A DNA stretch of 64,000 nucleotides from contig OW028577.1 in NCBI GenBank assembly GCA_932294295.1, positions 8,700,001-8,764,000 on the forward strand. The letters run 5' to 3'. The notes under the pieces were generated by a model that saw only the letters and a program-made list of their open reading frames with translations, made no database searches and was not told where the DNA came from. The translations under genes and the position numbers were made by a program. Origin of the DNA: Alitta virens. Taxonomy: Eukaryota > Annelida > Polychaeta > Phyllodocida > Nereididae. Positions 12,271-50,098 of this stretch are shown here, piece after piece (within the stretch, counting starts at the first letter, position 1; each line of letters begins with the position of its first letter).

Positions 12271-15200
12271 ATGGACAGTATCATTCAGTGGAACTGTCGA
12301 GGTTTCAGAGCCAACTTCGATGAAATAGGTTGCATGGTCCAAGACTTAAACCCTAGTGTTTTCTGTCTACAGGAAACATTTCTGAAACCTCCAAATAGTT
12401 TTAAACTGAGAAACTATCATATGTATAATACATATGGCAATATTGCCCACGATAGAGCCACTGGTGGCTCATCAATTTTAGTTAAAAATGGCATCATTCA
12501 TACCCATATTGCTCTTAACACTAACCTTCAGGCTACAGCAGTTCGTCTGAACCTGAATAAAACATTCACCATATGTTCCATATATATTCCTCCACCCTTT
12601 CACCTTACAGCCAGTGATTTGCATAACCTTTACAATCAACTGCCTGAACCGCGTCTTATCCTAGGAGATTTTAACAGCCATAACCAATTGTGGGGAAGCA
12701 CTTCCCACAACAACAAAGGAAAAACCATTGAAGATTTTCTCAATGACCACACCCTTTGCTTGTTCAATGATGGTTCACCTACATATCTTCACCCAGGTCA
12801 TGGAACATTTTCAGCGATAGACCTTAGTATATGTGATCCAGCGTTATTTCTGGAATTTGAATGGAGAGTATTAGAGGACACTCACGGCAGTGATCACTTT
12901 CCTATTGTCCTACAAAACGTAGAAGGTACAAGAGAAGTGGGTCAACTCCGATGGAAGTTGCATAAAGCGGATTGGACCTCCTTCGAAAAGCACTGCTTAG
13001 AAACAATTACTATGTCTCATTATAGGAATTGTAATAATCTCGTTGAAGATTTTACTGATGATATTACTGATATAGCCAATAAAACAATACCGATGACAAA
13101 AAATAATTCTAAACGTAGTGCAAGACCTTGGTTTGATGACGAAGTAAGAGAAGCTATTAAAAACCGTAAGAAAGCCCTCAGAATTTTTAAATCACAGCCG
13201 ACCATCAACAATCTGAATAATTTTAAGTGCCTGAAAGCCAAAGCGCGTAGAATTGTCAGGCAAAAAAAACGTAGTTGCTGGAGAGACTATGTCTCCAGAC
13301 TCACTGAAAGAACTCCTAGCAATAAAGTCTGGAAAATGATTAAGAAGATTGAAGGAAAGAACCTAGCTTCGCATGTAAGCATTCTAGAAGTGAATGGAGA
13401 ACATCTCTCCTCACCAGAACAAATATCAAACGGGTTAGGAGAACAGTTTGCATACAACTCCTCATCGGAGAACTATACGAGAGAATTTCAATGTTATAAG
13501 GCTCAAGCTGAGAGATTAACCCTAAATATACAGTCTGATAACAGCGAAGATTATAACTCCTACATCACCTTAGAAGAACTTCAGAAGGTCATCTTAAAAG
13601 CGACTGACTCTGCAACAGGCCCTGATAATATACATTCTCAAATCTTAAAACACCTACCTCAATCCTCTTTAAAAACATTACTGTACATCTTTAATCAAAT
13701 TTGGGAGAAGGGATGTCTTCCATCCCTGTGGAAACAAGCCACGGTCATCCCAATTCCCAAGCCGGGGAAGGATCATAGTGATCCTATGAATTATCGACCA
13801 ATAGCCTTAACCAGTTGTCTATGTAAGACAATGGAGCGAATTGTTACCGATAGACTGGTTTGGTTCCTGGAGTCGAACCAGCTTATTACAGAGTTCCAAT
13901 CTGGATTTCGCCGTCACAGGAGCACATTAGATCATTTAGTCAGACTGGAAACTTATGTTAGAGATGCTTTCATTAACAGAGAACACGTAGTAGCCATATT
14001 CTTTGACCTAGAAAAAGCTTATGACACTACATGGAAATATGGAATAATGAAAGATCTCCACGACTTAGGGCTTCGAGGTCGCCTTCCAGTTTTCATCGGA
14101 TCCTTCCTACAGGATCGCTTCTTTAAGGTCCGAGTGGGATCAACGATGTCAAGCCCCTACTCTCAGGAGAATGGAGTCCCTCAGGGTAGTATTCTCTCGC
14201 CCACCCTCTTTAACGTCAAAATCAACAGTATAGTAAATTCCATCTCAGAAAATCTCATGTCGTCCCTATATGTTGACGATTTCCTCATTGCATATCGTTC
14301 CAGATATATGCCAACCATAGAACGACAACTGCAATTAAATTTGAATAGGATTCACAAATGGTCACTCGAAAATGGCTTCAAGTTCTCTAAACAGAAGACA
14401 GTTTGTCTGCCTTTCTATTACTTACGATCAAACCATCCAGATCCATCACTAATAATTGACAACTGTCAAATAAAAGTGGTGAATGAAACAAAATTTTTGG
14501 GTGTACTCTTTGACTCCAAATTGTCTTTCATTCCGCATATCAAAGCACTGAAAGCAAAGTGCCTGAAATCAATGAACCTCCTTAAAGTAGTGAGCAAATA
14601 TAATTGGGGTGGGGACACAACGGTCCTCCTTCGTCTCTATCGAGCAATTACTCGTTCTCGACTTGATTATGGTTCTGTGGTATATAGCTCCGCCAGACCA
14701 TCTTATCTAAAATGCCTGAATTCTGTACATCATCAAGGGTTGCGACTAAGCTTAAGAGCTTTTCGTACATCTCCTGTAGAGAGCTTATATGTACTGGCAG
14801 GGGAACCTCCACTTTCCCTTCGTCGTATCAAGTTATCCATGCAATACATACTAAAGGTAGCTTCAACTCCAACAAATCCAACATATGATGTAATATTTCA
14901 TCCAAAATACATGCATCATTATGAATCTCGTTCAAACGCCATTCGACCACTGGGATTACGCATGAAATTCTATCTTGAGGCTGCAAAAATTGATACTACA
15001 ATCATTGCCGAGACGGAAGTACCACCCATTCCGCCATGGATTCTCCCAGTCCCGAAAGTTATACTGGATTTGGCAGAGCTTAAGAAAAGCGAAACCAATC
15101 CGGTAGACTATCAAAATCTATTTTATAGTATAAGGTTTAAATACGAATCGTACAAATTTCTATACACAGATGGCTCAAAAATGGAAAGACGAGTAGGCTG

Positions 15201-15954
15201 TGCTGTCACTTCTTATAAAACCGTTATAGCTGAATGTCGTCTTCCAGACCACTGCTCAATATACACTGCAGAATTAACAGCTATTTACCTTGCCTTAAAG
15301 AACATCGAGGACTCAGAATCAGATCGTTATGTTATCTGTTCTGATTCCAAATCTGCTCTTCAAGCAATCCAAAATAAACAACTTGATAACCCTGGGATCT
15401 TAGATGTTCTTATTAAGTATTTCTATCTTCACGAATACAAAGACATAGTATTCTGCTGGATTCCTGGACACGCTGGCATTGAAGGGAATGAAAAAGCAGA
15501 CCTGGCAGCAAAAAGGGCTCTTACAAAAGAGATAACTGATTTTACCATTCCATACACTGATTTTAAAATGACTATAAAATCTTTTATCATGTCTTGCTGG
15601 CAAAGACAATGGAATGAATGTAATAACAACAAGTTGCATTCAATCTTACCTTGCATTCAAAATAAAATACCGAGTAGGTTCAATACTCGCAAAGATCAAG
15701 GAATATATCACAGATGCCTCATAGGACATTCAAGACTTACACATTTACACCTTTTAGTCAATGAACCGGCACCGGTATGCCAGAGTTGTCGGCGCTCCCT
15801 AACAATCAAACATATTTTATTAGATTGCATCCACTTACAACGCATTAGAAGACCTCTGTTTCAAGCTACTACCTTACAACATCTCTTTACTAGATATCCA
15901 ACCCAGACAATTATTGATTTTTTATATGCTTCTGGTTTCTACTACCAAATATAG
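12271..15954 (+). CDS. I-group LINE ORF2: endonuclease, reverse transcriptase and RNase H, copy 1
   Basis: 1227 residues, intact. The AP-type endonuclease (about 1-220) has IIQWNCRGF, LQETF, LGDFNSHN, SAIDLSI and GSDHFPI. The RT (about 470-760) has YRPIALTSCLCK, FFDLEKAYDTTW, GVPQGSILSPTLF, the catalytic YVDD near residue 668, and FLGVLFDSKLSF. The RNase H (about 962-1090) has YTDGSK, YTAELTAI, CSDSKSAL and GHAGIEGNEKADLAAK, giving a complete acidic active site. A C-terminal C-x2-C...H-x4-C knuckle (CQSC ... KHILLDC) follows. It performs target-primed reverse transcription. YVDD replaces the more usual YADD and is shared by copy 2, so it is a family trait. Confidence 0.95.
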   Translation: MDSIIQWNCRGFRANFDEIGCMVQDLNPSVFCLQETFLKPPNSFKLRNYHMYNTYGNIAHDRATGGSSILVKNGIIHTHIALNTNLQATAVRLNLNKTFTICSIYIPPPFHLTASDLHNLYNQLPEPRLILGDFNSHNQLWGSTSHNNKGKTIEDFLNDHTLCLFNDGSPTYLHPGHGTFSAIDLSICDPALFLEFEWRVLEDTHGSDHFPIVLQNVEGTREVGQLRWKLHKADWTSFEKHCLETITMSHYRNCNNLVEDFTDDITDIANKTIPMTKNNSKRSARPWFDDEVREAIKNRKKALRIFKSQPTINNLNNFKCLKAKARRIVRQKKRSCWRDYVSRLTERTPSNKVWKMIKKIEGKNLASHVSILEVNGEHLSSPEQISNGLGEQFAYNSSSENYTREFQCYKAQAERLTLNIQSDNSEDYNSYITLEELQKVILKATDSATGPDNIHSQILKHLPQSSLKTLLYIFNQIWEKGCLPSLWKQATVIPIPKPGKDHSDPMNYRPIALTSCLCKTMERIVTDRLVWFLESNQLITEFQSGFRRHRSTLDHLVRLETYVRDAFINREHVVAIFFDLEKAYDTTWKYGIMKDLHDLGLRGRLPVFIGSFLQDRFFKVRVGSTMSSPYSQENGVPQGSILSPTLFNVKINSIVNSISENLMSSLYVDDFLIAYRSRYMPTIERQLQLNLNRIHKWSLENGFKFSKQKTVCLPFYYLRSNHPDPSLIIDNCQIKVVNETKFLGVLFDSKLSFIPHIKALKAKCLKSMNLLKVVSKYNWGGDTTVLLRLYRAITRSRLDYGSVVYSSARPSYLKCLNSVHHQGLRLSLRAFRTSPVESLYVLAGEPPLSLRRIKLSMQYILKVASTPTNPTYDVIFHPKYMHHYESRSNAIRPLGLRMKFYLEAAKIDTTIIAETEVPPIPPWILPVPKVILDLAELKKSETNPVDYQNLFYSIRFKYESYKFLYTDGSKMERRVGCAVTSYKTVIAECRLPDHCSIYTAELTAIYLALKNIEDSESDRYVICSDSKSALQAIQNKQLDNPGILDVLIKYFYLHEYKDIVFCWIPGHAGIEGNEKADLAAKRALTKEITDFTIPYTDFKMTIKSFIMSCWQRQWNECNNNKLHSILPCIQNKIPSRFNTRKDQGIYHRCLIGHSRLTHLHLLVNEPAPVCQSCRRSLTIKHILLDCIHLQRIRRPLFQATTLQHLFTRYPTQTIIDFLYASGFYYQI

Positions 15955-16268
15955 ATAATCAATCTTAACCTAGAGAGCCTCTACATAGCCCACTCAGGTG
16001 CTGATGAGGCGTTAAACAATAACTCACACACACACACACATCTTACCAAACAAGCTTTGATATTTTCTTCTTTTGTGTACTCCTCTAGTCGGTCTATGTC
16101 TTCCCCGGACATAAGAGGGAGGGTGATATCATCTGGCAATTTGCTTTCTGATGGATGCTCTCTGATATCCCCAGTCCTCCTCATATCAGCAAGGTGCTCA
16201 ACATAGCTTTGATTGTGGCATTTTCTTCTTTTAATTCCTCTAGCACAGTTAAGATCCTAATTCTCTTG

Positions 16269-16832: not shown

Positions 16833-17742
16833 TATCAATACACCAAAGGAACTTTTTTGTTGGATACTATACTTGAGCCGTTTATTTCTAAGTCTTGATA
16901 GTCTTCACAACACCACTCCTCACGAAAGTCATTTTGATTGAAAACAGTGCTCAGCAATAGGCAAAAACAAAGACAAATTTACAATTTAATAGACTTTAAA
17001 AAAAAACACAAAAAAAAAATCAATTTAAAGCAATATACATAAACTAAATAAATATTCTAGCTCACCGTCTTTAAATAACAGCTAGAGTCCTTCTTGGAGG
17101 GCACAGTGATCTGATGTGTTTTCTTAATGCCCTTATGTGATCCTGTGGTCCCAGGGCACATTTCTCAATGCTAATTATGTTTGCACCAGTTGCGGTATTT
17201 TACTCACTGACAAACATATATTATAGCCATTTTTCTGCGACTGCATTATTCAAAGGAAAAAAAAATCGACTTTGAAATATCGCAGTTTTCGTGTTTTATG
17301 TTTGCAAAGCTCTTTGACCTTGAAAAGTAGTTCAAGGTTACTAATACCATGTCTCAAGAAGTCACACACCCGAACTTGGAAAAGAGGGGGGAGGGGGATA
17401 ATGACAAAAACAAAGGTCTTCACCATAGGATTATGAAGCCCAATAATTTAAATGAAAAACCAACGATTGATAAACATTATGATAATACAGGGATTCATAA
17501 AAAAACAAGCCTGCGAAACATTCCGAAGACGTTGCTACACATTTTATTGAGACGGCAAGTTTTCTTAACGCTAAAGCAAGTATAAATTTAATCTTGAGAG
17601 TTAGAGGCAATATACCTATCCACAACTTCTATTCATACAAATATGTATAGGCCTATATATATTTTTTGTATTCTATTTCCAATTTACATTATCAAACATT
17701 TCATCACAATTTGCACAATATTTCAAAGGAAATATTGTTATA
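16833..17742. other. AT-rich stretch, no gene seen
   Basis: Contains homopolymer A tracts and a 78-codon open frame (17349-17585) without recognisable features. Ends at the TA target site of the Tc1 element. Confidence 0.4.
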
Positions 17743-18535
17743 TACACTGCCAAGAAAAAGTTTGGAAAAAAATGTTTTTTCGTTATTTTTTATGGAATTT
17801 CATGGTTTTATTAACAAAAGTAACACTGACTGGGTAAACAAACACAAGAGAAAAGAATGTGATATGTACAAAACCATTAATTAGCAAAAACAAACTTGTT
17901 ACAGTTCAAACTTTTGATTCATCAAAAAAAACACCCTTTGCAGCTAGAGCGCTTTACAAATCTTGGGCATTCTGGCAGTGAGTTTGGTGAGATATTCAGG
18001 TGTGATTTCATTCCAAGCCTGTTGCAAAAGGTTCCACATGTCAGATTGGCTTGTTGGACACTTTTCCCGGACTTTCCGATCAAGCTGCTCCCATAAAAGC
18101 TCTATTGGATTTAGGTCGGGCGATTGTGCTGGCCATTTCATAACTGATAGTATCCCAGCTGCTTCTTTCTTTTCCAAATATGTTGTGCAGAGCTTTGACG
18201 TATGTTTAGGGTCATTATCTTGTTGCATAATGAAGTTGCGCCCAATCACTCGCTGTCCAGATGGGATTGCTTGTCGCTGCAGGATGGAATGATAGCCTCT
18301 CTGGTCCAGTATTCCTTTGATTTGGAACAGGTTGCCAACTCTACCATTCCCAAAACAACCCCATATCATCACATTTCCACCACCGTGTTTGACGAAAGGT
18401 GTTAAACAGGCATCCATCATCTTCTCATTGCTCCTGCGTCTGACAAACGTTTTTCTCTTGGATCCAAACACGTCAAATTTTGATTCATCAGTCCAGAGTG
18501 CCCGATTCCAATCATCAATGCTCCAATTTTTGTGG

Positions 18536-18721
18536 GGCGGGGGCCTAGCTCAGAGGTAGCGCTCTGGGCTTCCAACCGCTGGGTCCCGGGTTCGATTCCC
18601 GGTCGAGCCTAAGTTGGATGGCTGTTTCATCCTTCGTCTCATTGCCATGGTCCCTGCCTGTCCTAATTAGCCCAACTGGTGCAGAAACACAGGACGTAAA
18701 GCCCTAATCCCACCCACCCAC
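18536..18721 (+). mobile_element. tRNA-derived SINE, copy A (inside Tc1 transposase)
   Basis: The head resembles a tRNA gene with box A (TAGCTCAGAGGTAGCG) and box B (GGTTCGATTCC). A unique body, a tail block TAGCCCAACTGGTGCAG...AGGACGTAAAGCCCTAA and a C/A-rich repeat end follow. The 16-bp target duplication GCTCCAATTTTTGTGG flanks it (18520-18535, 18722-18737). Boxes A and B provide an internal RNA polymerase III promoter. Confidence 0.92.
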
Positions 18722-18786: not shown

Positions 18787-18871
18787 GCCCTCGAAGGTCC
18801 TGGGCCTCCACGCGGCGAGGGTGGAAACACTTGGGGTGAAGTCCTCTATCCCCAGTGGCTAAAACAGGACC
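18787..18871 (+). ncRNA. HDV-like self-cleaving ribozyme (copy 2)
   Basis: Identical in all paired regions and in the J4/2 UGGCUAAAA to the copy 1 ribozyme. Predicted cleavage is again exactly at the first base after the target duplication. Confidence 0.85.
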
Positions 18872-18939
18872 GTGCGCATTGCACAAGCTGCTCCAGCTTT
18901 ACAGGAGGGTGTGTCCCCTACCATACAGGGGAAACAAAA

Positions 18940-20361
18940 ATGGAAATGTCTTCAGAGAATAGTCCAAACCGGCTCGCACGTCCCCCGGGTGAACAAGGTG
19001 CGCGTCCCTCAGCGGTAAACCAGGCTGAGGTCGAAAAATTGGCTACTGGTTCCAGACAAAGTAAACGTTTCCGCTCATCTACAGATGATGCCAATCCAAG
19101 TACAACTTATGATGTTATATCTACGCCATGGCCTAAGTTTCTTGTTGTTACTGGCAGTGACGATGGGTTTTCCCGTCTCTCAGCCATAACAATTTGTCGA
19201 ACGTTGAAAGAAAGTATTGGTTTCGTTGAAAATACGAGAAGGCTCAGGAGTTCATCCTTGCTGGTGCAGGTTGCCCACAAGGACCAATCGTTAAAATTGC
19301 TGGAGCTGAGGGCCTTTGCGGGTACCCCTGTAAAGGTGGAGCCCCATCGGTTCTTCAACTCTTGCAAGGGGGTTGTGACATCTCATGAGAGCAGTCTCTG
19401 CTCCGATGACGAACTGAGGGACTGGCTGAATGACTACAATGTCATCCACATTCACCGCCAGCCCCCCAGATATTCACGACAGCTACTGACTCTGACCTTT
19501 GATGGCACAGTGTTGCCTGATAGGGTCAGCATAGGGTTCGAGTGGTGTAGGGTACGTCCCTACATCCCGAACCCAAAACGATGTTATAATTGCCAGCGAT
19601 TTGGCCATTTTAGCGGCTCCTGCCGCGCCAAAGCAACCTGCGCCAATTGTGGGTCACGGGAACACGTTCATTCCCGTGACTCACCATGTCAGAAACAGTC
19701 ATATTGTGTTAATTGTGGAGGTGATGGGCCAGCCTATCACCGTGGCTGTCCCAAATGGCAGCTAGAGAAAGAGATCCTGAAGTTAAAGACCACCAAGGAT
19801 ATCTCCTTTCCCCAAGCACGCCGTATAGCTGAACAGGCTGCTGGGGCAAGTTATGCCTCAGTCCTGTCTCAGATGGCTGGACCTAGATCTCCTTCACCCA
19901 GATCATCGCCCAGGCGAAGGATTGACCTAGATCCTAATTATAATTATTCCAAGGCAGGGCAAAGCTTGCAGAAACATAAACCAGAATCTAAGACTTCACA
20001 GGCAGACGATCACCTCGCAAGAATAAAGCAGCATGCTATAGATGTCGGAAAAGGACATCTTGTAGCTCCATCGGTTAGTGCGTCACAACTTAGTGTACCC
20101 TCACAGGGTGCACCTTCCGGCGTTGAGTCGGAAGAGATACACCAGCCGATGGAAGAGGAGGCAGGGACTACCACCATCCCTCGGCCTCAACGGGAGGGGG
20201 CAATTGATAAAAGATCAATTGTTCCCAAAAGACCCCCCCTCATCAGAAAAACACTAGAAAAATCTAGTGCACTGAGCTTCATAACACCACCATCTAAGCA
20301 TGGTGGGGCCCTCAAAAAGATCTTAACACCAAAAGAGGCAGCGACTTTGAAGAAAAAGTGA
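18940..20361 (+). CDS. I-group LINE ORF1 protein, copy 2
   Basis: 473 residues, same domain order as in copy 1: RRM-like region, three CCHC-type knuckles, basic disordered tail. It begins MEMSSENSPNRLARPPG instead of MNMSESTISDRLARPPG. Twelve of 33 nucleotides differ here, while the flanking 150-bp leader and the rest of the gene are almost identical. The ORF is intact and presumably functional. Confidence 0.9.
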   Translation: MEMSSENSPNRLARPPGEQGARPSAVNQAEVEKLATGSRQSKRFRSSTDDANPSTTYDVISTPWPKFLVVTGSDDGFSRLSAITICRTLKESIGFVENTRRLRSSSLLVQVAHKDQSLKLLELRAFAGTPVKVEPHRFFNSCKGVVTSHESSLCSDDELRDWLNDYNVIHIHRQPPRYSRQLLTLTFDGTVLPDRVSIGFEWCRVRPYIPNPKRCYNCQRFGHFSGSCRAKATCANCGSREHVHSRDSPCQKQSYCVNCGGDGPAYHRGCPKWQLEKEILKLKTTKDISFPQARRIAEQAAGASYASVLSQMAGPRSPSPRSSPRRRIDLDPNYNYSKAGQSLQKHKPESKTSQADDHLARIKQHAIDVGKGHLVAPSVSASQLSVPSQGAPSGVESEEIHQPMEEEAGTTTIPRPQREGAIDKRSIVPKRPPLIRKTLEKSSALSFITPPSKHGGALKKILTPKEAATLKKK

Positions 20362-20431
20362 ATATTCATACAAATTCATACCATGCACTACAGATTTTAC
20401 TATGATAATATTAAACTCTTTTAACTAATTC

Positions 20432-23400
20432 ATGGACAGTATCATTCAGTGGAACTGTCGAGGTTTCAGAGCCAACTTCGATGAAATAGGTTGCATGGTC
20501 CAAGACTTAAACCCTAGTGTTTTCTGTCTACAGGAAACATTTCTGAAACCTCAAAATAGTTTTAAACTGAGAAACTATCATATGTATAATACATATGGCA
20601 ATATTGCCCATGATAGAGCCACTGGTGGCTCATCAATTTTAGTTAAAAATGGCATCATTCATACCCATATTGCTCTTAACACTAACCTTCAGGCTACAGC
20701 AGTTCGTCTGAACCTGAATAAAACATTCACCATATGTTCCTTATATGTTCCTCCACCCTTTCACCTTACAGCCAGTGATTTGCATAACCTTTACAATCAA
20801 CTGCCTGAACCGCGTCTTATCCTAGGAGATTTTAACAGCCATAACCAATTGTGGGGAAGCACTACCCACAACAACAAAGGAAAAACCATTGAAGATTTTC
20901 TCAATGACCACACCCTTTGCTTGTTCAATGATGGTTCACCTACATATCTTCACCCAGGTCATGGAACATTTTCAGCGATAGACCTTAGTATATGTGATCC
21001 AGCGTTATTTCTGGAATTTGAATGGAGAGTATTAGAGGACACTCACGGCAGTGATCACTTTCCTATTGTCCTACAAAACGTAGAAGGTACAAGAGAAGTG
21101 GGTCAACTCCGATGGAAGTTGCATAAAGCGGATTGGACCTCCTTCGAAAAGCACTGCTTAGAAACAATTACTATGTCTCATTATAGGAATTGTAATAATC
21201 TCGTTGAAGATTTTACTGATGATATTACTGATATAGCCAATAAAACAATACCGATGACAAAAAATAATTCTAAACGTAGTGCAAGACCTTGGTTTGATGA
21301 CGAAGTAAGAGAAGCTATTAAAAACCGTAAGAAAGCCCTCAGAATTTTTAAATCACAGCCGACCATCAACAATCTGAATAATTTTAAGTGCCTGAAAGCC
21401 AAAGCGCGTAGAATTGTCAGGCAAAAAAAACGTAGTTGCTGGAGAGACTATGTCTCCAGACTCACTGAAAGAACTCCTAGCAATAAAGTCTGGAAAATGA
21501 TTAAGAAGATTGAAGGAAAGAACCTAGCTTCGCATGTAAGCATTCTAGAAGTGAATGGAGAACATCTCTCCTCACCAGAACAAATATCAAACGGGTTAGG
21601 AGAACAGTTTGCATACAACTCCTCATCGGCGAACTATACGAGAGAATTTCAATGTTATAAGGCTCAAGCTGAGAGATTAACCCTAAATATACAGTCTGAT
21701 AACAGCGAAGATTATAACTCCTACATCACCTTAGAAGAACTTCAGAAGGTCATCTTAAAAGCGACTGACTCTGCAACAGGCCCTGATAATATACATTATC
21801 AAATCTTAAAACACCTACCTCAATCCTCTTTAAAAACATTACTGTATATCTTTAATCAAATTTGGGAGAAGGGATGTCTTCCATCCCTGTGGAAACAAGC
21901 CACGGTCATCCCAATTCCCAAGCCGGGGAAGGATCATAGTGATCCTATGAATTATCGACCAATAGCCTTAACCAGTTGTCTATGTAAGACAATGGAGCGA
22001 ATTGTTACTGATAGACTGGTTTGGTTCCTGGAGTCGAACCAGCTTATTACAGAGTTCCAATCTGGATTTCGCCGTCACAGGAGCACATTAGATCATTTAG
22101 TCAGACTGGAAACTTATGTTAGAGATGCTTTCATTAACAGAGAACACGTAGTAGCCATATTCTTTGACCTAGAAAAAGCTTATGACACTACATGGAAATA
22201 TGGAATAATGAAAGATCTTCACGACTTAGGGCTTCGAGGTCGCCTTCCAGTTTTCATCGGATCCTTCCTACAGGATCGCTTCTTTAAGGTCCGAGTGGGA
22301 TCAACGATGTCAAGCCCCTACTCTCAGGAGAATGGAGTCCCTCAGGGTAGTATTCTCTCGCCCACCCTCTTTAACGTCAAAATCAACAGTATAGTAAATT
22401 CCATCTCAGAAAATCTCATGTCGTCCCTATATGTTGACGATTTCCTCATTGCATATCGTTCCAGATATATGCCAACCATAGAACGACAACTGCAATTAAA
22501 TTTGAATAGGATTCACAAATGGTCACTCGAAAATGGCTTCAAGTTCTCTAAACAGAAGACAGTTTGTCTGCCTTTCTATTACTTACGATCAAACCATCCA
22601 GATCCATCACTAATAATTGACAACTGTCAAATAAAAGTGGTGAATGAAACAAAATTTTTGGGTGTACTCTTTGACTCCAAATTGTCTTTCATTCCGCATA
22701 TCAAAGCACTGAAAGCAAAGTGCCTGAAATCAATGAACCTCCTTAAAGTAGTGAGCAAATATAATTGGGGTGGGGACACAACGGTCCTCCTTCGTCTCTA
22801 TCGAGCAATTACTCGTTCTCGACTTGATTATGGTTCTGTGGTATATGGCTCCGCCAGACCATCTTATCTAAAATGCCTGAATTCTGTACATCATCAAGGG
22901 TTGCGACTAAGCTTAAGAGCTTTTCGTACATCTCCTGTAGAGAGCTTATATGTACTGGCAGGGGAACCTCCACTTTCCCTTCGTCGTATCAAGTTATCCA
23001 TGCAATACATACTAAAAGTAGCTTCAACTCCAACAAATCCAACATATGATGTAATATTTCATCCAAAATACATGCATCATTATGAATTTCGTTCAAACGC
23101 CATTCGACCACTGGGATTACGCATGAAATTCTATCTTGAGGCTGCAAAAATTGATACTACAATCATTGCCGAGACGGAAGTACCACCCATTCCGCCATGG
23201 ATTCTCCCAGTCCCGAAAGTTATACTGGATTTGGCAGAGCTTAAGAAAAGCGAAACCAATCCGGTAGACTATCAAAACCTATTTTATAGTATAAGGTTTA
23301 AATACGAATCGTACAAATTTCTATACACAGATGGCTCAAAAATGGAAAGACGAGTAGGCTGTGCTGTCACTTCTTATAAAACCGTTATAGCTGAATGTCG

Positions 23401-24115
23401 TCTTCCAGACCACTGCTCAATATACACTGCAGAATTAACAGCTATTTACCTTGCCTTAAAGAACATCGAGGACTCAGAATCAGATCGTTATGTTATCTGT
23501 TCTGATTCCAAATCTGCTCTTCAAGCAATCCAAAATAAACAACTTGATAACCCTGGGATCTTAGATGTTCTTATTAAGTATTTCTATCTTCACGAATACA
23601 AAGACATAGTATTCTGCTGGATTCCTGGACACGCTGGCATTGAAGGGAATGAAAAAGCAGACCTGGCAGCAAAAAGGGCTCTTACAAAAGAGATAACTGA
23701 TTTTACCATTCCATACACTGATTTTAAAATGACTATAAAATCTTTTATAATGTCTTGCTGGCAAAGACAATGGAATGAATGTAATAATAACAAGTTGCAT
23801 TCAATCTTACCTTGCATTCAAAATAAAATACCGAGTAGGTTCAATACTCGCAAAGATCAAGGAATATATCACAGATGCCTCATAGGACATTCAAGACTTA
23901 CACATTTACACCTTTTAGTCAATGAACCGGCACCGGTATGCCAGAGTTGTCGGCGCCCCCTAACAATCAAACATATTTTATTAGATTGCATCCACTTACA
24001 ACGCATTAGAAGACCTCTGTTTCAAGCTACTACCTTACAACATCTCTTTACTAGATATCCAACCCAGACAATTATTGATTTTTTATATGCTTCTGGTTTC
24101 TACTACCAAATATAG
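20432..24115 (+). CDS. I-group LINE ORF2: endonuclease, reverse transcriptase and RNase H, copy 2
   Basis: 1227 residues, intact, with all motifs listed for copy 1 (endonuclease, YVDD RT, RNase H, terminal zinc knuckle). Nine amino-acid differences from copy 1 were counted, for example KPP/KPQ near residue 43, SIYIPP/SLYVPP near 108, and CRRS/CRRP near the C-terminus. None touches a catalytic motif. Two intact near-identical copies within 8 kb suggest current activity of this family. Confidence 0.95.
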   Translation: MDSIIQWNCRGFRANFDEIGCMVQDLNPSVFCLQETFLKPQNSFKLRNYHMYNTYGNIAHDRATGGSSILVKNGIIHTHIALNTNLQATAVRLNLNKTFTICSLYVPPPFHLTASDLHNLYNQLPEPRLILGDFNSHNQLWGSTTHNNKGKTIEDFLNDHTLCLFNDGSPTYLHPGHGTFSAIDLSICDPALFLEFEWRVLEDTHGSDHFPIVLQNVEGTREVGQLRWKLHKADWTSFEKHCLETITMSHYRNCNNLVEDFTDDITDIANKTIPMTKNNSKRSARPWFDDEVREAIKNRKKALRIFKSQPTINNLNNFKCLKAKARRIVRQKKRSCWRDYVSRLTERTPSNKVWKMIKKIEGKNLASHVSILEVNGEHLSSPEQISNGLGEQFAYNSSSANYTREFQCYKAQAERLTLNIQSDNSEDYNSYITLEELQKVILKATDSATGPDNIHYQILKHLPQSSLKTLLYIFNQIWEKGCLPSLWKQATVIPIPKPGKDHSDPMNYRPIALTSCLCKTMERIVTDRLVWFLESNQLITEFQSGFRRHRSTLDHLVRLETYVRDAFINREHVVAIFFDLEKAYDTTWKYGIMKDLHDLGLRGRLPVFIGSFLQDRFFKVRVGSTMSSPYSQENGVPQGSILSPTLFNVKINSIVNSISENLMSSLYVDDFLIAYRSRYMPTIERQLQLNLNRIHKWSLENGFKFSKQKTVCLPFYYLRSNHPDPSLIIDNCQIKVVNETKFLGVLFDSKLSFIPHIKALKAKCLKSMNLLKVVSKYNWGGDTTVLLRLYRAITRSRLDYGSVVYGSARPSYLKCLNSVHHQGLRLSLRAFRTSPVESLYVLAGEPPLSLRRIKLSMQYILKVASTPTNPTYDVIFHPKYMHHYEFRSNAIRPLGLRMKFYLEAAKIDTTIIAETEVPPIPPWILPVPKVILDLAELKKSETNPVDYQNLFYSIRFKYESYKFLYTDGSKMERRVGCAVTSYKTVIAECRLPDHCSIYTAELTAIYLALKNIEDSESDRYVICSDSKSALQAIQNKQLDNPGILDVLIKYFYLHEYKDIVFCWIPGHAGIEGNEKADLAAKRALTKEITDFTIPYTDFKMTIKSFIMSCWQRQWNECNNNKLHSILPCIQNKIPSRFNTRKDQGIYHRCLIGHSRLTHLHLLVNEPAPVCQSCRRPLTIKHILLDCIHLQRIRRPLFQATTLQHLFTRYPTQTIIDFLYASGFYYQI

Positions 24116-25001
24116 ATAATCAATCTTAACCTAGAGAGCCTCTACATAGCCCACTCAGGTGCTGATGAGGCGTTAAACAATAACTCACACACACACACAC
24201 ACCTCAGGAGGGGTTTTTTCTCGCGACTCTTCCCATAAGACCCACACTCCTGAGTCGTCTCCTCACAGTATCTGTGCATACTGGTGTCTGGCGAGTGCTG
24301 TTCAGGGAGGCAGCTATTTCAGGAGAAGTTAAACGTCTGTTCATCAGAGAAGACACCCGAATGTATTTATCCTCTTGAGCAGTGATGCATTTTGACCTTC
24401 CACTCCAATGTTTATCCTTAATAGAGCCAGTATCACCATGTCGTGTAAGGGTATAATGGACCCCCTTTAAAGATATACCCAGTTTTTTGGCTATATCTTC
24501 AAGCTTATATCCTTCATTTCTCAAAACTACTATAGACTGTCGAGTTTCTAGTGTCAATTGTTTCTTTTTGGCAATTTGCAGTTGAAATTTCTGGAAAAGG
24601 TTTAAACAAAATTAACTGGAAAAATGACCAGTTAAGAATTAAGGTTTAGACAAAATTAATTAGGCCGTTTGGATACTTAAGAAAAATGTTTAGTCTACAA
24701 GGTGTTTTAAGTGCACAATGGAAGAGATATGGATGACCAGTCACGCATATTCGGACCGAATTTGTGCACTATACTGTGAAAAAACATCTACCTTTGACAG
24801 CTGCAAAAGGTGTTTTTTATTGATGGGTTAAAAGTTTGAACTGTAACAAGTTTGTTTTTGCTAATTAATGGTTTTGTACATATCACATTCTTTTCTCTTG
24901 TGTTTGTTTACCCAGTCAGTGTTACATTTGTTAATAAAACCATGAAATTCCAAAAAAATAACGAAAATTATTTTTTTTCCAAACTTTTTCTTGGCAGTGT
25001 A

Positions 25002-25412
25002 TAATGCAGAAAAAAATATACGTCTAAGAATGTACACAAGAGATGCAAAATATGAATGCCATACACCATCGTGTGCTGGAAAAATTAAACAAGGACACAA
25101 TTCTGGGATTAAGCTATTCATTGAAAATTTATGCAATGCATACTTATGTATATACATAATACGATTTTCTTGCTTTACAAGCTCTGGATATAACATATAT
25201 AATGAGCACAAATTCGATCATCAATCATGAACAATTGAAAACTAATTTGGTGAAAATATAGGACTTCGCATCACTAGGTAAATATATAGAGCGCTGCAGC
25301 AGACCCTCAGTCAGTGAAGTACTTGATGTGTTATTCAGCAAAATTACATTGAAAAGGCTCATGTTGTTCAATGGCCACTTATAAGGTATTGATACATTCT
25401 AAATAATTTGCT
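25002..25412. other. 3' flank of the cyclodipeptide synthase gene
   Basis: AT-rich DNA between the Tc1 end and the stop codon of the minus-strand synthase gene; it should contain that gene's 3' UTR. No canonical AATAAA was found on the minus strand. Confidence 0.4.
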
Positions 25413-26264
25413 TCATTTGAACACTGTAAACTCCAAACAAGACCTAATGACCCCATCATACTTGCCAGCAAAGTATTTTGTGAGAACAGGCCACTGTGTA
25501 TGGTAGATAAAATTGTATTTTTGAAACTCTGAGAAAATTTGAGGAACGGTTGCAAAAAATGTCAACTCTTTTAGGAGATAATAAACCCCTTCTTCAATGT
25601 CAATGTTCTGGGACTCAAACTGCCCTCTGCCGGATAGTAAACTTTCCAGCGCCACCTGGGTTGTCTCCGTGACATCATTATAGAAATCTCGACTGCTATG
25701 ATACAAAGCCATAACTTCATCCAACATATTGTGGTAATGAGGACATGATTCAACTTCAACTTTCCAGTCAATCAGAGAAAACTTCTTCTCATCGATACAG
25801 CCAGATTGGAATATTGTTTTTATTTTATTCCGCAGTCGGTTGGCCTTCACTCGGGCTGATCTTTCTGGGTTGCTTGATCCAACCGCTCTGTAGTTGTGTT
25901 CTGATATGACGTCCGGGATAAATAGTTTTATCTGAAAAAAAAAAAAATTATAATCAAAAAACTTATTTTAGGTCATCTACAGTCTAGGTAGCTAACATGC
26001 CATTTTAAATTGGGCCTACATTGTTTCCATATTGGCTGTTTCAATATAGCTTACCACTTGGGCAGAGTTTTCCGCAAACTGGAATAATTTGATGAGACTT
26101 TCGTCTTTGTAGTAATGAGGATTTCCTGGACTGATTCCTAAGATCATGGGGCAACTGCCTTTCTGAAGATTCTCCATGTTGATTGTCAACTTGAAATTGG
26201 CTGATATGGCATCAAAGTCCTTTAAAATATAAGATAATGTTGATGGTGAAGAATTTACTGTCAT
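25413..26264 (-). CDS. Cyclodipeptide synthase (CDPS), NYH subfamily, two exons
   Basis: Exon 1 is 26264-26055 (ATG at 26264, donor GTAAGC). Exon 2 is 25931-25413 (acceptor T-rich then CAG). They join in phase to 242 residues, the usual CDPS length (about 200-300). CDPSs take two aminoacyl-tRNAs and form a cyclic dipeptide by a ping-pong mechanism on a class-I tRNA-synthetase-like fold. Visible signature: ILGISPGNPHYY, where Ser45 matches the acyl-accepting Ser37 of AlbC and Asn48 matches Asn40. KLFIPDVIS and RVKANRLRNKI form the basic tRNA-facing helix region. YLLKELTFF gives Tyr188 and Glu192 (AlbC Tyr178/Glu182), and FIYHTQWP gives Tyr213-His214 (AlbC Tyr202/His203). Asn, Tyr and His together define the NYH subfamily. 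No signal peptide is seen, so it is cytosolic. A Harbinger transposon ends about 20 bp upstream of the ATG. The intron and animal setting argue against bacterial contamination. The product cannot be predicted. Confidence 0.9.
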
Positions 26265-26284
26265 GAATTTTATGTTATGTCTTA

Positions 26285-28728
26285 AGGGGGATTCTCACAT
26301 AGCCGGTTTTCCCATTGAAGCTGTATTGCTCTCGTAGAATTATGTAATACCCCATTTTCACGACTTCACCACGGTTGTTGGAAGCAAAAAGGGGCGGTGC
26401 TTAAGGCGACGGGTCAGTTGGCGGCAGCAAGGTATGAATCACGGACACCCGGCGGATCACACGTAGGATACGTACCAAACCGGATGGATGATGCCCGGTC
26501 TGAGGGCGGGTGAGCCACGGGTAAATTACGTTTATGATGGGAGACTCCATGGCATCTACATACCACCTGCAGGCTTGTACGTGTTAGGGGCATATCAAGC
26601 ACGTGTCAATCACGACTGTGAAGGATACAAGGGACAACCTGGCGAGTGAACTACATGAACTACGTTTGAAGGCCTGCTGTCATGGTGGAGGGGCCAGATG
26701 TGAATATACAAGTGGCTGCTTGTCTGTAGCCTTCATTCTGCTCCTTGTTACCACAGAGAAAGAACCATGGCACATGCAGTAGACCAACCAACAGCCATTG
26801 TAAAATTGGCTCAGGCCAGCTTGGAATTAAATGTGCAACTAGCAACTATTGCACAGGCTATTATGCATGATGAAGAACAGTCCTAAAGAACTGCAGAAAG
26901 AAGACAAGGAGTCATTAAGAGAAGGAAAAGAAAGATTTTGGGTGAGGCCATGGCTATTGTGAAGACCTCAGATGGGCAAATACGAACGCTATGTGAGAAT
27001 GCAGCCAGCCATGTTCCAAGAGCTGCTTGCCAAAGTTGGGCCTAGAATTACCAAGCAAGACACCTTCTGGAGGAAAGATTTGGAGCCAGGACTCAGGATT
27101 GCCATCATCCTGATGTATGGCTTCAGAGTGGCCCACAACACCAACAGCAACGTCATTCCTGAAGTGTGTGAAGCCATCATACCCGAGTAGGCAGAAAATG
27201 TCCTCTCCTGTCCAACAAACCAGAAGAGTTGAGAGAAGTTGCACAGCAGTTTGAGGCAAGATGGAACTTTCCTCATTGTATTGGTGCCATAAACGGGAAG
27301 CATGTGGCCATTAGGTGTCCTCCCAAAGGAGATTCACTCTGCTATAACTACAGTACAAGGGCTTCCATTCCATTGTACTCATGGCTCTTGTGGATGCAGA
27401 CTACAAGTTCATCTATGTGGATTGTGGAGTAACTGGTTCTGGATCTGATGGAAGAGTTTTTGCTGCTGCAGCCCTGAGAGAAGACCTGTAACATACTTGA
27501 TCGTTGGGGATGATGCCTTACCTTTGAGAACCTGGCTGATAAAACCACTGCCTCTGCGCAACATGACCAAACAGCAGAGGATCTACAATTACAGACTCTC
27601 CAGAGCCAGAAGAATTGTGGAGAATGCGTTTGGTATCCTGGCATCAAGGTTTAGGTAACTGCTAACCACTATGCCCCAGAAAACCAAGACTGTGGAATCT
27701 TTAGTCCTTGCATGCTGCTGCCTCCACAACCTCATGAAAATCCAAGCTGAAATGCCAGCACATAGGATCGGAGGGAACTATGCTACCCAGAGTGTCAAAC
27801 TACGACTGTACTTGCTGGACTATGTCAACTCAGAGGAAGGAACTGTCCCATGGCAAGACAATATGATTTGAGAAGCCTGCAAGATTTCCCAAAACAACCC
27901 GGCCTGCAGGAGCTTCTTCTTCAGTTGCCACGTTCCAGCCTGCAGGTACCTACAAGTCTTCTAGACCTGGGCCTTCATCTTCATTGGGTGTCTTCTCTGC
28001 TGTACCTTCTCCAGTGGTGCCTGGTTCTTCTTCCTTGAACCCTCCTTCAGTGGGATCCTTGCTGTCTGGCAGTGACAACGTTCCTGCCAGTTTGACTGCT
28101 CAACATGAGCTAGCAGATGTCTCGGAAGAAGTAATCACCTTGTCCTGTTCCTGTTCCAGTAGATGTTCCAGTAGAAAAAAACAAGAAAACTCAAAAATAA
28201 AAAAGTATGGGTCATGTGACGAGCCAACCGGCCCTGCAACCGTCCTGCACCCATCGTTAATGTAGCAGCCGGTGAGTTACTCGTGGCACATATGAGTCAC
28301 ACCTAGCGTACGTAGGTATTGACTTTTCTATATGTAGAAACCGGTCACTTATCCGTGGTACACGTGAGTGCACACGTAGAAGCCGAAGGTTTAATCATCG
28401 CACACGTACCTCTCCCGCCGGGTTCTTGACACCCACGTGTGCGATGGTTAACCCGCCGGCTTCTACGAGTGTCTCACATGTGACTTGGCTTATGCCACGA
28501 GTGCCTTTACGGCAACGACGGCTTCACTACGGTTGCTAACTATAAACAACCAACCACGAGTTTTCTACGGATGTTTTGAACATGAGCACATCTGTCAATT
28601 TTGGCGGTTTTCGGGGATCTGGGACGCCTGCGAGGAATCAAGTAAGTGTGTTCACAGTCTTCTACGACAACCTCCCGATAACCACGGTACGGCTTCTCTG
28701 GGAAAACCGGCTATGTGAGAACCCCCCT
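26285..28728 (+). mobile_element. PIF/Harbinger transposon with decayed transposase
   Basis: Terminal inverted repeats of about 29 bp begin AGGGGGATTCTCACATAGCC at 26285 and, on the other strand, AGGGGGGTTCTCACATAGCC at 28728. They are flanked by TTA duplications (26282-26284, 28729-28731), the TWA target preference of PIF/Harbinger elements. Subterminal regions are GC-richer and rich in CACGT/ACGTG words. A HARBI1-like transposase lies on the plus strand. The accessory Myb-like gene expected in complete elements was not recognised. Confidence 0.92.
26767..27871 (+). pseudogene. HARBI1-like Harbinger transposase, broken
   Basis: The frame starts ATG at 26767 (MAHAVDQPTAIVKLAQ), meets TAA near 26883, and continues through frame shifts. 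Recognisable blocks: MQPAMFQELLAKVGPRITKQ with WRKDLEPGLRIA (26980-27110); FPHCIGAINGKHVAIRCPP (27268-27330); [15 protein letters not shown] and SDGRVF (27380-27460); RRIVENAFGILASRF (27600-27655); ACCCLHNLM near the end. These are blocks of the HARBI1/DDE_4 nuclease. The first catalytic Asp is replaced by Asn (GAINGKH where GAIDGKH is usual). About a dozen residues before MYGFRVA are missing. The enzyme is therefore dead. Its terminal repeats match those of the MITE in the Gypsy gag gene. Confidence 0.9.
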
Positions 28729-28731
28729 TTA

Positions 28732-29460
28732 GACATGATTTTCAGTGACTTCTGGCAATTTCAAAATGACTGTAGTGGTGCAACTTTATTAGAATTTTCA
28801 TTACATTTTAAGATTCATAACATGGACTCAAAATTGCGAACTTATGGTTGACAATATGAAACCTATATTAAATTGACTGTATCTTGCAATTTGACTTCTA
28901 ATGTAAAAGAATTAAAAAAATTGCATAAAATATCTTAATAATTCGCCAAATTTCTCACAAAATTCTACCATATTTTCAAGTATTCAATAAAACTACAACA
29001 GTACCTGTTTGGCCTGCAAGTTTATTAAAAACTTATAAGAATAATATACGTGTAGTATTTCATTTTAGTTTACCTCATAGCAATGGAGGGTGAGGATATC
29101 ACAGAAAAATACATTTCGGGGGCTCCTTCAGAGGTTAAACTTGAAAATACTGAGCATTTCCAGGATCCATTAATTGACGACAATGTTCTGCGGACACGTA
29201 TTTACTCAATGTTGCATCTAGGACCATGTATAAACTGTATTTTTTTTCTTTACTGTGTTTGTAAATATTTTGAGATATAAATAGATGTCAGTGTTTTTAA
29301 GCTCGAGAAAAAGAAGGTGGCCTGTGAATTTCCATTTTCATGGCATATATATATATATTACAGTTCTGAAATAGTTTACATGGTCACAGTTTAATGCTGT
29401 TTTCAGTTGTCTGTGACATTGCAGTTGTTGCAGATCACTGATAGCTTTTCTGAAATTTGA
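28732..29460. other. AT-rich flank with a possible short exon (29083-29230)
   Basis: A plus-strand frame MEGEDITEKYISGAPSEV... begins a few bases after a TTTACCTCATAG acceptor-like site and is acidic and protein-like for about 50 residues. No family is recognised and no partner exon was found, so it is left as a weak exon candidate. Confidence 0.25.
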
Positions 29461-30612: not shown

Positions 30613-32485
30613 GTTGACGTGAAATGTACCCAATAAATTCAATAAGCAGGTAAAATTGATGGTTAGAAGAATATAGAGTGACATGGAAAACAATTACAGT
30701 GAACATAGCAAAATGGTGAACCGTGTTAATATAATCATACATTGAAAATGATGAGCAGGTAGGCTAAAGTGGTTAATAATTTAACAAAGAAGGATTTCAC
30801 CTAAAAACCAAAAAACGGCTGCGCAAATTTGTCAGCGACGTAGATGACATTTTGACAAGGGAACGATTGAGTCATCGATGCAGTCTTGTCCTCAGCAACA
30901 GGGGGATCTCCTTGCGTCAAACCATTACTCGGACTTGTTACTTCATATGCAGTCTAGCCCTTTTTCAGCACCTGCACACAGCACCTGGCACACATCACTA
31001 GTGGTGCAGGCTCATGCTAAAATGCTGAGTGTCGCTTGATTTAATTTTGAACGTAAAAACTGCAGAGCATACTGCATAGGAAGAGCAAATGCTGAGAAGA
31101 AAAACAAGGGAAAAGATGAAGAAGTAGTCGACAGAGTCAGTGGAGGCGAGAGTCTCTGGCAGCGGTGTTAGTCAGATGCCCTCCTTTCGAGTGTCCGGAG
31201 AGGTTTAGACAGTGCCGGCTTCTAGTGCAGGAGGAAGCACAATGAGACCAGAGGCTGTCGGCTTCCATTTGTGTCAACGTTGCACGATTGAAATCTTTCA
31301 TCAGCAACGTTGACTACATCTCAACCAGCAACGGTTTAGTCGCCGATGCAGCCTCAGTCTCTGTCTAATAAGAGTCAGTGGGATCGCCATCCAATTGATA
31401 TTTGAGGCAAAACTGATTCCTTATTGAAAGACAAATTGATACATAATAAGACCAGGACCATATGGTATCTGCTTTTATCAGAGAGTGACAATGTCTACGA
31501 ATGCTATTACTCAATACAAGTCTCTTTCTTATTGAGCTGATGTACTTGACCAGTCACTTAACTGTAAGTTAGATGCTTTGTCACGTTTTTGTACTGTTGT
31601 GGTAATGACATGACTGATAGGCCTAAAGAAGTCTCTTTGTACGATTGGACTGATGACCATGTCCCTTTTACTTAACACTCAGTTGTCAGTTTAGATATAT
31701 TACTTTTTATCTTTATTTGCTTTTTGACTGTCAAAAGTTACTTAGGTGTACAAGTGAAAGGGTGACTGTTGCACGAGCCTGCTTTTGCAGGGCAACCTCA
31801 AATGTTCAGTTTGTGGCACAATAGCAACTCATGCTTCTCAGTATGCATTTGGACACACCTGTAAAGTCTCTCATTGTGAGGTATCCTGCCCCAATGACCG
31901 ATTTTGATGCACAATCCGTGAGAACCCGTCCTGATCCTCAAAAAATTTGTTTACATTTTTTCAGGTACATCTGATTTCAAGTAAATTTGACTGATCGAAG
32001 ACAGGGTTTAGTGGCAGATATATGTCTTCTAGTAGTGGTTATTTCTCTTGCTTTTGATTCCGGAGTAACTTCACTGTGGTTTATGTGACTGTTTATTAAG
32101 GTCTAGAGAGCTATTCCACTGGGTGAGCGGTCATGGCTAGGCTGATGATTTTATCTAAATATGAACTTTCAAGGTCATTCCATTTCTTTAACTTTACTTC
32201 TGCCTTTACTCCACTAACACCTGCTTCAATGCAAGTAGTTGGTCTAAAATCCAAGCAGGTGCCTTAAGGTTTTTGCATACACTTTCTCCACAGCCTTGAC
32301 ATAGTTTGTCAGCCATGATTAACATCCATACAGGATTGAGCTCTGTAATCCTGATTACATTGTGTTCACCTTGTTGGCCAGACAAAATACTCAAACTTTC
32401 ATCGACTCGGTATGAAAAGGAACCCTACATCAGTCAGTAACATTAAGAACCTGCAATTCTACCTCAGAAAAAGAATCTCCTGGTG
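30613..32485. other. Gene-poor stretch
   Basis: No supported gene, RNA or complete element in 1.9 kb. Short open frames (for example the minus-strand frame at 32394-32206 with CQGCGESVC) are not recognisable. A short 'CKLDALSR' reading at about 31571 faintly recalls the end of a Gypsy RNase H but is too short to use. Confidence 0.4.
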
Positions 32486-32632: not shown

Positions 32633-33875
32633 CCTAATGAAGAACCAAAAGATAAACTCATAAACTTGCATAAGAACAAAATGACACCCAGCTTTAAGAA
32701 CTTAAACAAAGTTGTGAACGGCATAACAAGAAAAGTGCCAAGACAGCAAGTTAAAACCTTCATGGTTCATGGAAGAATAAAAAAATTACACAAAAGCCAA
32801 ATATTTCCGCATTAAACACGTGAGAATATGCATGAATAAGTTACAACTAAGGCACCCAACCAACATGCCTACTGTAAAGATAATCTCTACTTCTTTGTCA
32901 CTACACACGCATACAATGTTTCTGGTGATAAATGCGAAGTCCCAACCACAACAGTTGTCAAAAGCCGCTACAAAATAGAGCCCCATCATCCTGAGTATGA
33001 GAAGCTGAACAAAAAGGGCAACAGAAATATCATAGAAACTGCTGTTGACAGACTCAGCCACAACTTACAATTCAACCAAGGGATGTACAATAGAAACGAA
33101 CCAAAATTTGTGAAAGATCACAAAAATAGCATTACTTTCTACTGAGCATACGTGGACGTCTTAATTCCAATAGTGTTGGAAACATGGAACCAACTGAAGG
33201 AAAATCTGCAAATATTTAAGATCGTTCACTCCAAAAAAACAGATCCAACCAGTGTGGGAGAAAATGGATGCTTAAAGCAAAAAAATGAGTGACAGCATTG
33301 AGGTGAAAGAGAGTGACAGCATTGATGTGAAAGTCATACCAGGACAAAATGGGACTGTTTCTTTAACTAACTCTGTACTACAACACAAAAAGGACTGTTC
33401 TTATAAAACGTACAATGTTACCTTCTTATATTTCATAAAGCATGATGGGTTAATTATATTTATATAACATAATGTGCTAAATATTTTGAAATTTACATTT
33501 ATGTATGGTACAACGCATGGTGTACCTATCATATATTTCTTTGTTGTATTGAAAAATAAAGAAACATTAAACAAAATAAATGCATTTTCTTTCACCAAAA
33601 AAGTAGAAATAGAAATGACGGACCCATAATAGAATACAATAAAATATTAACAGGCTCTAGACTAGTAAAAAAGTAAAGTAAGTAAAAACATTTATTTATT
33701 GTCGGATAAAATGTACAAAGTATAAAACATAAGCGCAAGCGCTTTTTGCCGACATAAAACAACAAAAACAAAGATAATAACAAAATATCATGCAAAAATT
33801 AAGTTGATAATATAGGATCATCATTAAAATCACAATGTAACTTAAAATCGTACAATGGAAATATAGAGGTAAGCA
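32633..33875. other. Unidentified degenerate coding-like DNA
   Basis: The plus strand from 32633 reads a Lys-rich peptide (LPNEEPKDKLINLHKNKMTP ...) until a stop near 32813. After that, several short basic frames appear with many stops. This may be an old transposon coding region. The last 400 bp are AT-rich with nothing recognisable. Confidence 0.3.
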
Positions 33876-34433: not shown

Positions 34434-35494
34434 AGTTATTTCCTTTATATTATGTTGATTGAAATTTAGTTGATCATCTATATAAACACGTAGTAGTTTG
34501 ACAGTTTTTTGTTTGATATTTCTTTTTCAATAATTAACAGTGTGAAAGTGGTTGTATAACAGATTATGATTATGGATTAGTAATATTTAGTGCTGCATTG
34601 ATATTTCATTTTTAACAATTAACAGTGTGAAAGTGATTGAATGCTTATGGTTAATGCTTTTGTAAACTGGATTGATATTTCATAACTGTCTTTAATCTTA
34701 TTTATGAACCTGAGTTTTTTTGCTTTTTTTTTGTGTTTTTTTCTCATAACATTGACAGGCTAAAGTAATGACAAAGGTTGAGACTAATACAAAGCCAAAA
34801 TTAAACTTCACAACATACTAAGATAGAACAATGCACAGTTTATAATATAGACATACGTAGGTCTATATATTTTTTTAAATTAGACATGTAGGCACGGAAT
34901 CACAGAATATATAAAAGAATAAAATTAACCTTAACTTACCTTAATTTGTGCGATTGTAAATTTTTCTTCAGCTCTTGTGAAGAGAAATGCTATTGGGCTG
35001 GTTTATATAGCGACTGCCGAATGCATGCGATGCCAATCCAACTGCAAAGCCTGCCCCTTTAATATGAATTCTGGGGCGTATTTCCCCTTAGCTTGTGCTG
35101 TCGCATTTAAAAGCATTGCATTACTAATTTTTCTTTTTTAATTTTTAATTAGGTAGCTACTGAAGATATATACAACTTATATATTTCATGTTTTTTTAAG
35201 TTTTTGATATACTTTTTTTTTTATCCTACCCAGGCCTATTTTAAAAGTATGTTTTTATCATTAATTTTGGTTAATTGCAATATCACAAAAATGTTGCGTT
35301 TTATGCACATGTTGTGTTTCCTTTCGTCGCAATGCAACTATATATAGATATACTCTGCTATACATTTTAAGCTAATATGACCGACTTCAAGAGGCAGACG
35401 TAATGAATAACTACATAAGGGTGGAATCTAAATCCCTAGTATTATATTAATGTATATAAATATGTTGCTGATTTATTTGTGGGGTTATATATCA
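34434..35494. other. AT-rich stretch before the Gypsy element
   Basis: A pair of near repeats 'atttctttttcaataattaacagtgtgaaagtg' (about 34515 and 34605) lies in the first 200 bp. No gene seen. Confidence 0.4.
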
Positions 35495-37118: not shown

Positions 37119-37692
37119 AGCCACTATCTCACATAGCTGAGTGACGAAGCAGAGTAATGACGATCGCTGGAAAGCAATCAATCGGCTTCACTCTTGGTCT
37201 TTTGATGACTAGAAAAAGCAAGTCAGCAAGGTCTCGCCGATCGCTCGCAGATCACTTGCCGATCGCTCGCCGATCGTTCGCCAATCACTCGCAGATCGCT
37301 CGCCGATCACTCGCCTTCTTCACACGCCGACCACTTTGGCGAATAAATCACGTCCACACAGCAATCCATCTGATCAAGTGTACACCCAGAGTGACCAAGT
37401 GTACACCCAGAGAGACCAAGTGTACACCCAGAGTGACCAAGTGTACACCCAGAGTGCACGGCGAGGTTAATCCCGTTTAAATCCCGAGCAATTTCGGAGC
37501 AAATTTGCTCGGCGACAATCCTAAAAAGTTTTAAACATGTTTAAAACTTTACGATCGTTCTACGAGTATTGCCGTGTATTTACGAGCCTTTCCAGAGTGG
37601 TCGGGGTGCAGAGCCGTGTATTCCCGACTGCCTTATTTATTAAGCACTCAGCATCACTCGGCATTGTCACTCGGCTATGTGAGATAGGCCCT
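37119..37692. mobile_element. Harbinger-type MITE (574 bp) inside gag
   Basis: The terminal repeats AGCCACTATCTCACATAGCT (37119) and, reversed, AGGGCCTATCTCACATAGCC (37692) are flanked by TTA (37116-37118, 37693-37695). Internally there are tandem 'gatcgctcgcc' repeats (37230-37320) and about four copies of GTGTACACCCAGAGTGACCAA (37377-37460). No transposase. The gag frame is continuous across the empty site. The terminal core TCTCACATAGCC matches the Harbinger transposon at 26.3-28.7 kb. Confidence 0.92.
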
Positions 37693-46165: not shown

Positions 46166-46167
46166 AA

Positions 46168-50059: not shown

Positions 50060-50098
<39 letters not shown>

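Follow-up and report, generated by a model that had tools for sequence, protein, structure and literature searches.

A predicted NYH-type cyclodipeptide synthase gene, one of six copies in the genome of the ragworm Alitta virens

Results

We analyzed a 64,000-nucleotide stretch of the Alitta virens genome (contig OW028577.1, positions 8,700,001 to 8,764,000; hereafter, the window), which carries on its minus strand a gene for a probable cyclodipeptide synthase (CDPS). The window corresponds to C5:8700001-8764000 on chromosome 5 of an assembly of 671,116,069 bases in 23 contigs, fourteen of which span 36-80 Mb; the genome note for this species gives 671.2 Mb, 14 chromosomes and public RNA-seq (PMC10352625). 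The features of the locus and its surroundings are listed in Table 1.

Table 1 Features of the A. virens CDPS locus and of the rest of the window (residue numbers as in the initial annotation unless stated)
Feature	Position	Strand	Remarks
Coding part of CDPS exon 1, beginning at the probable first Met (residue 30)	26055-26177	-	holds the catalytic Ser and Asn; exon 1 found at six genome sites
Spliceosomal intron	25932-26054	-	123 bp, phase 0, GTAAGC...TTTTCAG, T-rich 3' end; position common to five paralogues and animal relatives
CDPS exon 2 with stop	25413-25931	-	Tyr188, Glu192, Tyr213, His214 (159, 163, 184, 185 in the 213-amino-acid protein)
5' extension of the initial model, probably non-coding	26178-26264	-	29 codons; chromosome 3 copy has a stop at codon 10
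CATATCAG, possible acceptor site of an intron further upstream	26201-26208	-	by eye and inference; matching place in four group B copies
Segmental duplication, core block shared with chromosome 3	25015-26838		C3:25657946-25659803, 95.8%
Colinear duplication blocks with chromosome 3	16880-17712, 32136-32185, 33275-33666, 34598-34781, 34778-35084		87.0% (first block)
PIF/Harbinger-type DNA transposon, just upstream of the CDPS gene	26277-28736		49-nt inverted ends 26277-26325 and 28688-28736, 90% complementary; DDE_Tnp_4 split over two frames
Two non-long-terminal-repeat (non-LTR) retrotransposons	10626-16043, 18787-24204	+	99.4% identity across 5418 bases; an open frame of 1228 amino acids in each
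Tc1-type transposase, C- and N-terminal parts	17944-18549, 24204-24611	-	apparently a single element interrupted by the second non-LTR retrotransposon
LTR-type retrotransposon	37683-42126	+	integrase domains precede reverse transcriptase and RNase H; the latter part is spread over three consecutive open stretches of one frame
Low-complexity repeat	42976-43866	-	open in three frames, coding Phe, Leu and Ser runs
Open frame leaving the window	2-658	-	end rich in CxxC; nothing in Pfam at E <= 0.01
Divergent indoleamine 2,3-dioxygenase-like exon	48631-49671	+	PF01231 at 19.7 bits, short of the 26-bit cut-off

The initial annotation of the locus, whose residue numbering is retained here, proposed an animal CDPS of two exons and 242 residues. 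A script rebuilt this model, with a 210-bp exon 1 (26264-26055) and a 519-bp exon 2 (25931-25413), an ATG at 26264 and a TGA closing exon 2 after 242 codons; the predicted exon/intron borders stand. The start codon and the length probably do not: in a near-identical copy on chromosome 3, codon 10 of the first 29 is an in-frame TGA, and the similarity of four more distant copies (group B, below) to the window protein begins only at residue 34-39. Given this stop in the chromosome 3 copy, the initial model's first 29 residues probably belong to an intron. By eye, CATATCAG precedes the start of group B similarity both in the window (26208-26201) and in each of the four group B copies, and in group A (the window and chromosome 3 copies) as in group B it is offset from the reading frame by two bases. 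We propose an upstream intron that would end at this motif; translation would begin at Met30 (26177) or in a further exon that escaped notice. Neither a promoter nor a first exon was found for the window CDPS. The coding sequence is thus most likely 26177-26055 joined to 25931-25413, encoding about 213 amino acids.

The window protein matched the CDPS profile PF16715 with 73.9 bits, clearly above the curated cut-off of 27 (E 2.1e-20; residues 40-227 on profile positions 20-204 of 220). About 5.8 billion proteins were also searched and gave 28 relatives at E <= 0.01 among 555 candidates; the profile match and the relatives are far beyond chance. An alignment search gave 29 relatives at E <= 0.001 among the 7998 scored. 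All species-named matches were from Anthozoa in both searches (5 of 28 and 8 of 29, respectively), and the best two relatives, P0002 (63%) and P0003 (58%), are fragments. In three MAFFT modes, Ser45, Asn48, Tyr188, Glu192, Tyr213 and His214 aligned stably with AlbC Ser37, Asn40, Tyr178, Glu182, Tyr202 and His203; the AlbC letters were checked in the sequence, and their catalytic position numbers follow the initial annotation. The protein therefore has the residues that define CDPSs (S45, Y188 and E192 for AlbC Ser37, Tyr178 and Glu182) as well as those of the NYH subfamily (N48, Y213 and H214 for Asn40, Tyr202 and His203), and the proposed complete NYH-type active site holds. Predicted models of window exon 2 and of a full-length homologue from Actinia both had solved CDPSs as first matches, ahead of synthetases, so that the suggested structural comparison with AlbC supports a CDPS fold for exon 2 alone and for the homologue. 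The fold of the models is also close to that of tyrosyl-tRNA synthetases.

Alignment assigned the residues I-G-F-P-K-F-F-F to the substrate pocket P1 and T-V-A-S-T-W-P to P2. The rows for tryptophan-containing products (cW1X and cW2X) of the pocket table in PMC5816076 show Val or Ile as the third P1 residue and Ala or Pro as the fourth (AlbC 65 and 67). The third P1 residue of the window, Phe74, is unlike these rows and the fourth, Pro76, is as in cW1X, in a comparison limited to the cW1X and cW2X rows. The pocket residues point neither way on a tryptophan preference by kinship to the animal enzyme Nvec-CDPS2, which they would neither confirm nor exclude. A new specificity suggested by the Lys in P1 was considered and set aside: in some bacterial homologues a Trp stands one position closer to the Tyr that follows, and for this reason Trp126, which does not vary among the animal sequences, may be the P1 residue.

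The window gene is one of six in the genome, which the initial annotation had not noticed. A genome search with PF16715 scored 8 candidates and placed 6 at E <= 0.001, and a search with exon 1 gave the same 6 loci. Group A comprises the window gene and a copy at C3:25.66 Mb, whose proteins are 98% identical. The copies of group B, at C1:75.44, C1:75.94, C1:73.10 and C5:30.20 Mb, are 77-95% identical to one another and 44-47% to group A. All six have two coding exons separated by a phase-0 intron at one position (120-123 bp in group A, 243-376 bp in group B), and both groups lie within duplicated stretches extending past the gene. The catalytic set reads SNYEYH in five copies and SNYQYH at C1:73.10, where, in the locus L051 (C1:73098069-73098587), Gln replaces the catalytic Glu and a near-invariant Tyr has become Cys; the encoded enzyme may be inactive or altered. 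The relative P0042 repeats this Glu-to-Gln change; altered CDPS copies thus recur in animals. The placement in a chromosome-scale assembly and an intron position identical in six paralogues and in animal relatives bear out the earlier view that this is a resident gene.

This intron position was then traced through the relatives. Among 26 animal-like relatives, the window left out, 15 break at the exon 2 junction (8 begin there and 7 enter unrelated residues just before it), and 11 read across. The breaking sequences look as unspliced genomic fragments would; the fragment P0022 is 91% identical over exon 2 to the full P0007. The intron was therefore present before the animal CDPS genes diverged.

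Two trees addressed the proposed phylogeny with bacterial and animal CDPSs. Both placed the animal-like rows on one side of a branch from the bacteria with 100/100 support, the second including all six A. virens copies and 20 of the 37 bacterial rows. The bacterial sample consisted of GISPFNS-type patterns and four plasmid matches, with fungal and ciliate CDPSs left out; P0028, P0029 and P0043 (fragments), L006 (a second match on one contig) and L018 (a short frame) were dropped, and L041-L044 (short matches) and the loci L003 and L004 were never entered. Separation from the bacterial enzymes and the common intron position together mark an animal CDPS lineage. In the second tree, seven named anthozoan rows fell in one clade of 27 (97/98), with groups A and B outside; in the first, built without group B, the window branched beside the sea anemones with weak support (67/87). 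Its place relative to Anthozoa thus differs between the trees, and a single clade of the worm's own copies with P0002 and P0003 was not rejected (p-AU 0.43). These patterns fit one intron-bearing origin of the animal genes, or the passage of an intron-bearing gene between animals; repeated uptake from bacteria does not fit. In a scan for a bacterial origin with the animal alignment (A1), none of 72 matched stretches was confirmed in genome contigs and none of 11 in viral contigs. The bacterial alignment (A7) gave 41 loci from 104 stretches in genome contigs, with none of 27 stretches confirmed in viral contigs, and a plasmid search found 4 distant CDPS matches.

Transposons lie close to the CDPS gene on both sides. 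We take the upstream element to be of the PIF/Harbinger superfamily from its DDE_Tnp_4 domain; its end at 26277 possibly places it inside the first intron, and it may be harmless to the CDPS gene since the upstream intron would contain it. Elsewhere in the window, the two non-LTR retrotransposons were probably active recently, given their identity and the fact that both frames are open. The domain order of the LTR-type element resembles that of Gmr1-like elements. The indoleamine 2,3-dioxygenase-like exon, 22 kb from the CDPS gene, has five relatives, the best 73% identical; a link to tryptophan chemistry is only a thought. No Pfam domain at E <= 0.01 was found in the six frames of a 4.9-kb block upstream of one group B copy, nor any in two forward frames of 44001-58999, an insensitive scan that missed the dioxygenase-like exon in its own frame and did not extend to the remaining forward frame or the opposite strand. 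Within these two regions, and with the same insensitivity for the second, no cluster of a CDPS with a tailoring enzyme was found. The numbers of RNA families at gathering score and of tRNAs were both zero.

Discussion

We put at roughly 0.82 the probability that the window holds a resident A. virens gene, with two coding exons, for an NYH-subfamily CDPS that is one of six in the genome. Several observations weigh against this reading. The full-length fold is that of the Actinia homologue (51% identity, 83% of the query) and not of the spliced window protein, and P1 position 119 is doubtful, being Lys127 or, if one residue is inserted, Trp126 (IGFPWFFF). The ratio of non-synonymous to synonymous change (dN/dS) is 0.64 in the group A pair, with five amino-acid and two silent changes, and 0.46-1.52 in group B pairs, where frames that are kept and residues that are quick to change would mean either weak constraint or diversifying selection. 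The catalytic Glu has become Gln in one of the worm's own copies (C1:73.10), and 4 of 32 animal-like relatives break the set of four C-terminal catalytic residues (P0008, His to Gln; P0012, Tyr to Phe; P0021, His to Tyr; P0042, Glu to Gln). Broken sets also occur in 5 of the 37 bacterial rows.

One reading of the transposons on both sides, of the missing first exon and promoter, and of a dN/dS of 0.64 on 7 changes is that the window gene belongs to the CDPS family and is dying, as a duplicate that lost its promoter or its first exon amid the transposons. We regard this as unlikely. From Met30, the group A pair differs at 7 of 642 coding sites without an indel and at 31 of 1023 non-coding sites, a set that includes a transposon end, with 5 indels (Fisher p 0.011); the coding part thus changes about 2.8 times more slowly, an argument that rests on the low total of changes because only 2 of the 7 are silent. 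The open reading frame is intact in both copies and unbroken next to a Harbinger-type transposase that is split over two frames, and an acceptor-like site that group B also has stands downstream of this transposon, which may therefore be within an intron.

A protein of CDPS fold might instead do another job, for example bind or deacylate charged tRNAs without making cyclic dipeptides. The high amino-acid change in group B, the Glu lost at C1:73.1 Mb, the broken sets among relatives and the closeness of the fold to tyrosyl-tRNA synthetases would agree with this. Across group B, 90 coding sites vary with no stop, when 4.1 would be expected from random changes, and with no indel; in the pair L046-L049, the introns differ no more than the coding sequence (12/372 vs 20/657). 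We consider such a job somewhat less probable still than a dying gene, as none of the six catalytic residues is missing from the window copy and the tested animal enzyme, Nvec-CDPS2, is reported to make tryptophan-containing cyclic dipeptides (PMC4159871). Contamination or a recent gene gift from bacteria, the source of most CDPSs (PMC4159871), is already contradicted by the chromosome-scale assembly, the six copies with one intron position, the duplicated flanking DNA, the 100/100 branch and the purely anthozoan species names at E <= 0.01 (5 of 28 named).

An NYH-subfamily CDPS in the window would work by analogy with AlbC, in which, according to PMC5816076, the first aminoacyl group is held on a serine, the second comes from another tRNA and ring closure follows. 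The enzyme would load the aminoacyl group of a charged tRNA onto Ser16 (Ser45 in the initial numbering), add a second from another charged tRNA and close the dipeptide into a 2,5-diketopiperazine. Transcription and splicing in A. virens, catalysis, substrate choice and a role in chemical defence or signalling are steps that we infer.

The window protein shares its catalytic set, and through the two models its fold, with the bacterial NYH enzymes AlbC, YvmC and Rv2275, whose identity to it is about 16-23%; P1 is LGVVLLFL in AlbC and IGFPKFFF (or IGFPWFFF) in the window. Bacterial CDPS genes are not known to have introns. Much closer are the CDPSs of Actinia, Exaiptasia, Oculina, Xenia, Dendronephthya and Desmophyllum: all eight named matches carry PF16715, seven are 45-52% identical to the window protein and that of Desmophyllum 35%, most have the full catalytic set, and genomic fragments close to them break at the window's intron position. 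Unlike the known anthozoan enzymes and Nvec-CDPS2, the A. virens family has six copies, and its pocket residues differ at several places.

That few animals are known to have a CDPS, as the initial annotation stated, agrees with the literature, which includes one from the window's own family, the Nereididae, in the annelid Platynereis dumerilii (PMC2922099). In the available parts of this literature, animal CDPSs are known from Nematostella and Platynereis, with four more marine NYH sequences by 2018, and reviews count twelve eukaryotic CDPSs, Annelida included. Aravind et al. describe the Platynereis gene as induced in an antibacterial response (PMC2922099); the word cyclodipeptide is absent from the cDNA paper cited there for the induction. 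Publications on animal CDPSs date back to 2010-2011, and the available literature gave no role in an animal. It also gave no Alitta CDPS and no multi-copy animal family, with no search aimed at Alitta and CDPS together. Animal CDPSs, including that of Platynereis (in print in 2010), are thus known already; what is new is the species, its set of six genes, the revised start and the argument from the intron.

Beyond the single gene, we hold it possible, on balance doubtful, that these are diversified, animal-owned, tRNA-dependent peptide makers, acquired once before the cnidarian/annelid split or passed between animals with the intron. The two groups would then be old ragworm classes, with group B fast-changing and its frames open, so that one worm would make several different cyclic dipeptides for defence or signalling. 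Peptide synthesis from charged tRNAs without the ribosome is not expected of animals, and the A. virens family is a richer example of this known animal oddity. With near-identical, fast-changing and catalytically altered copies together in a large intertidal worm, the six genes make expression, product and function directly testable.
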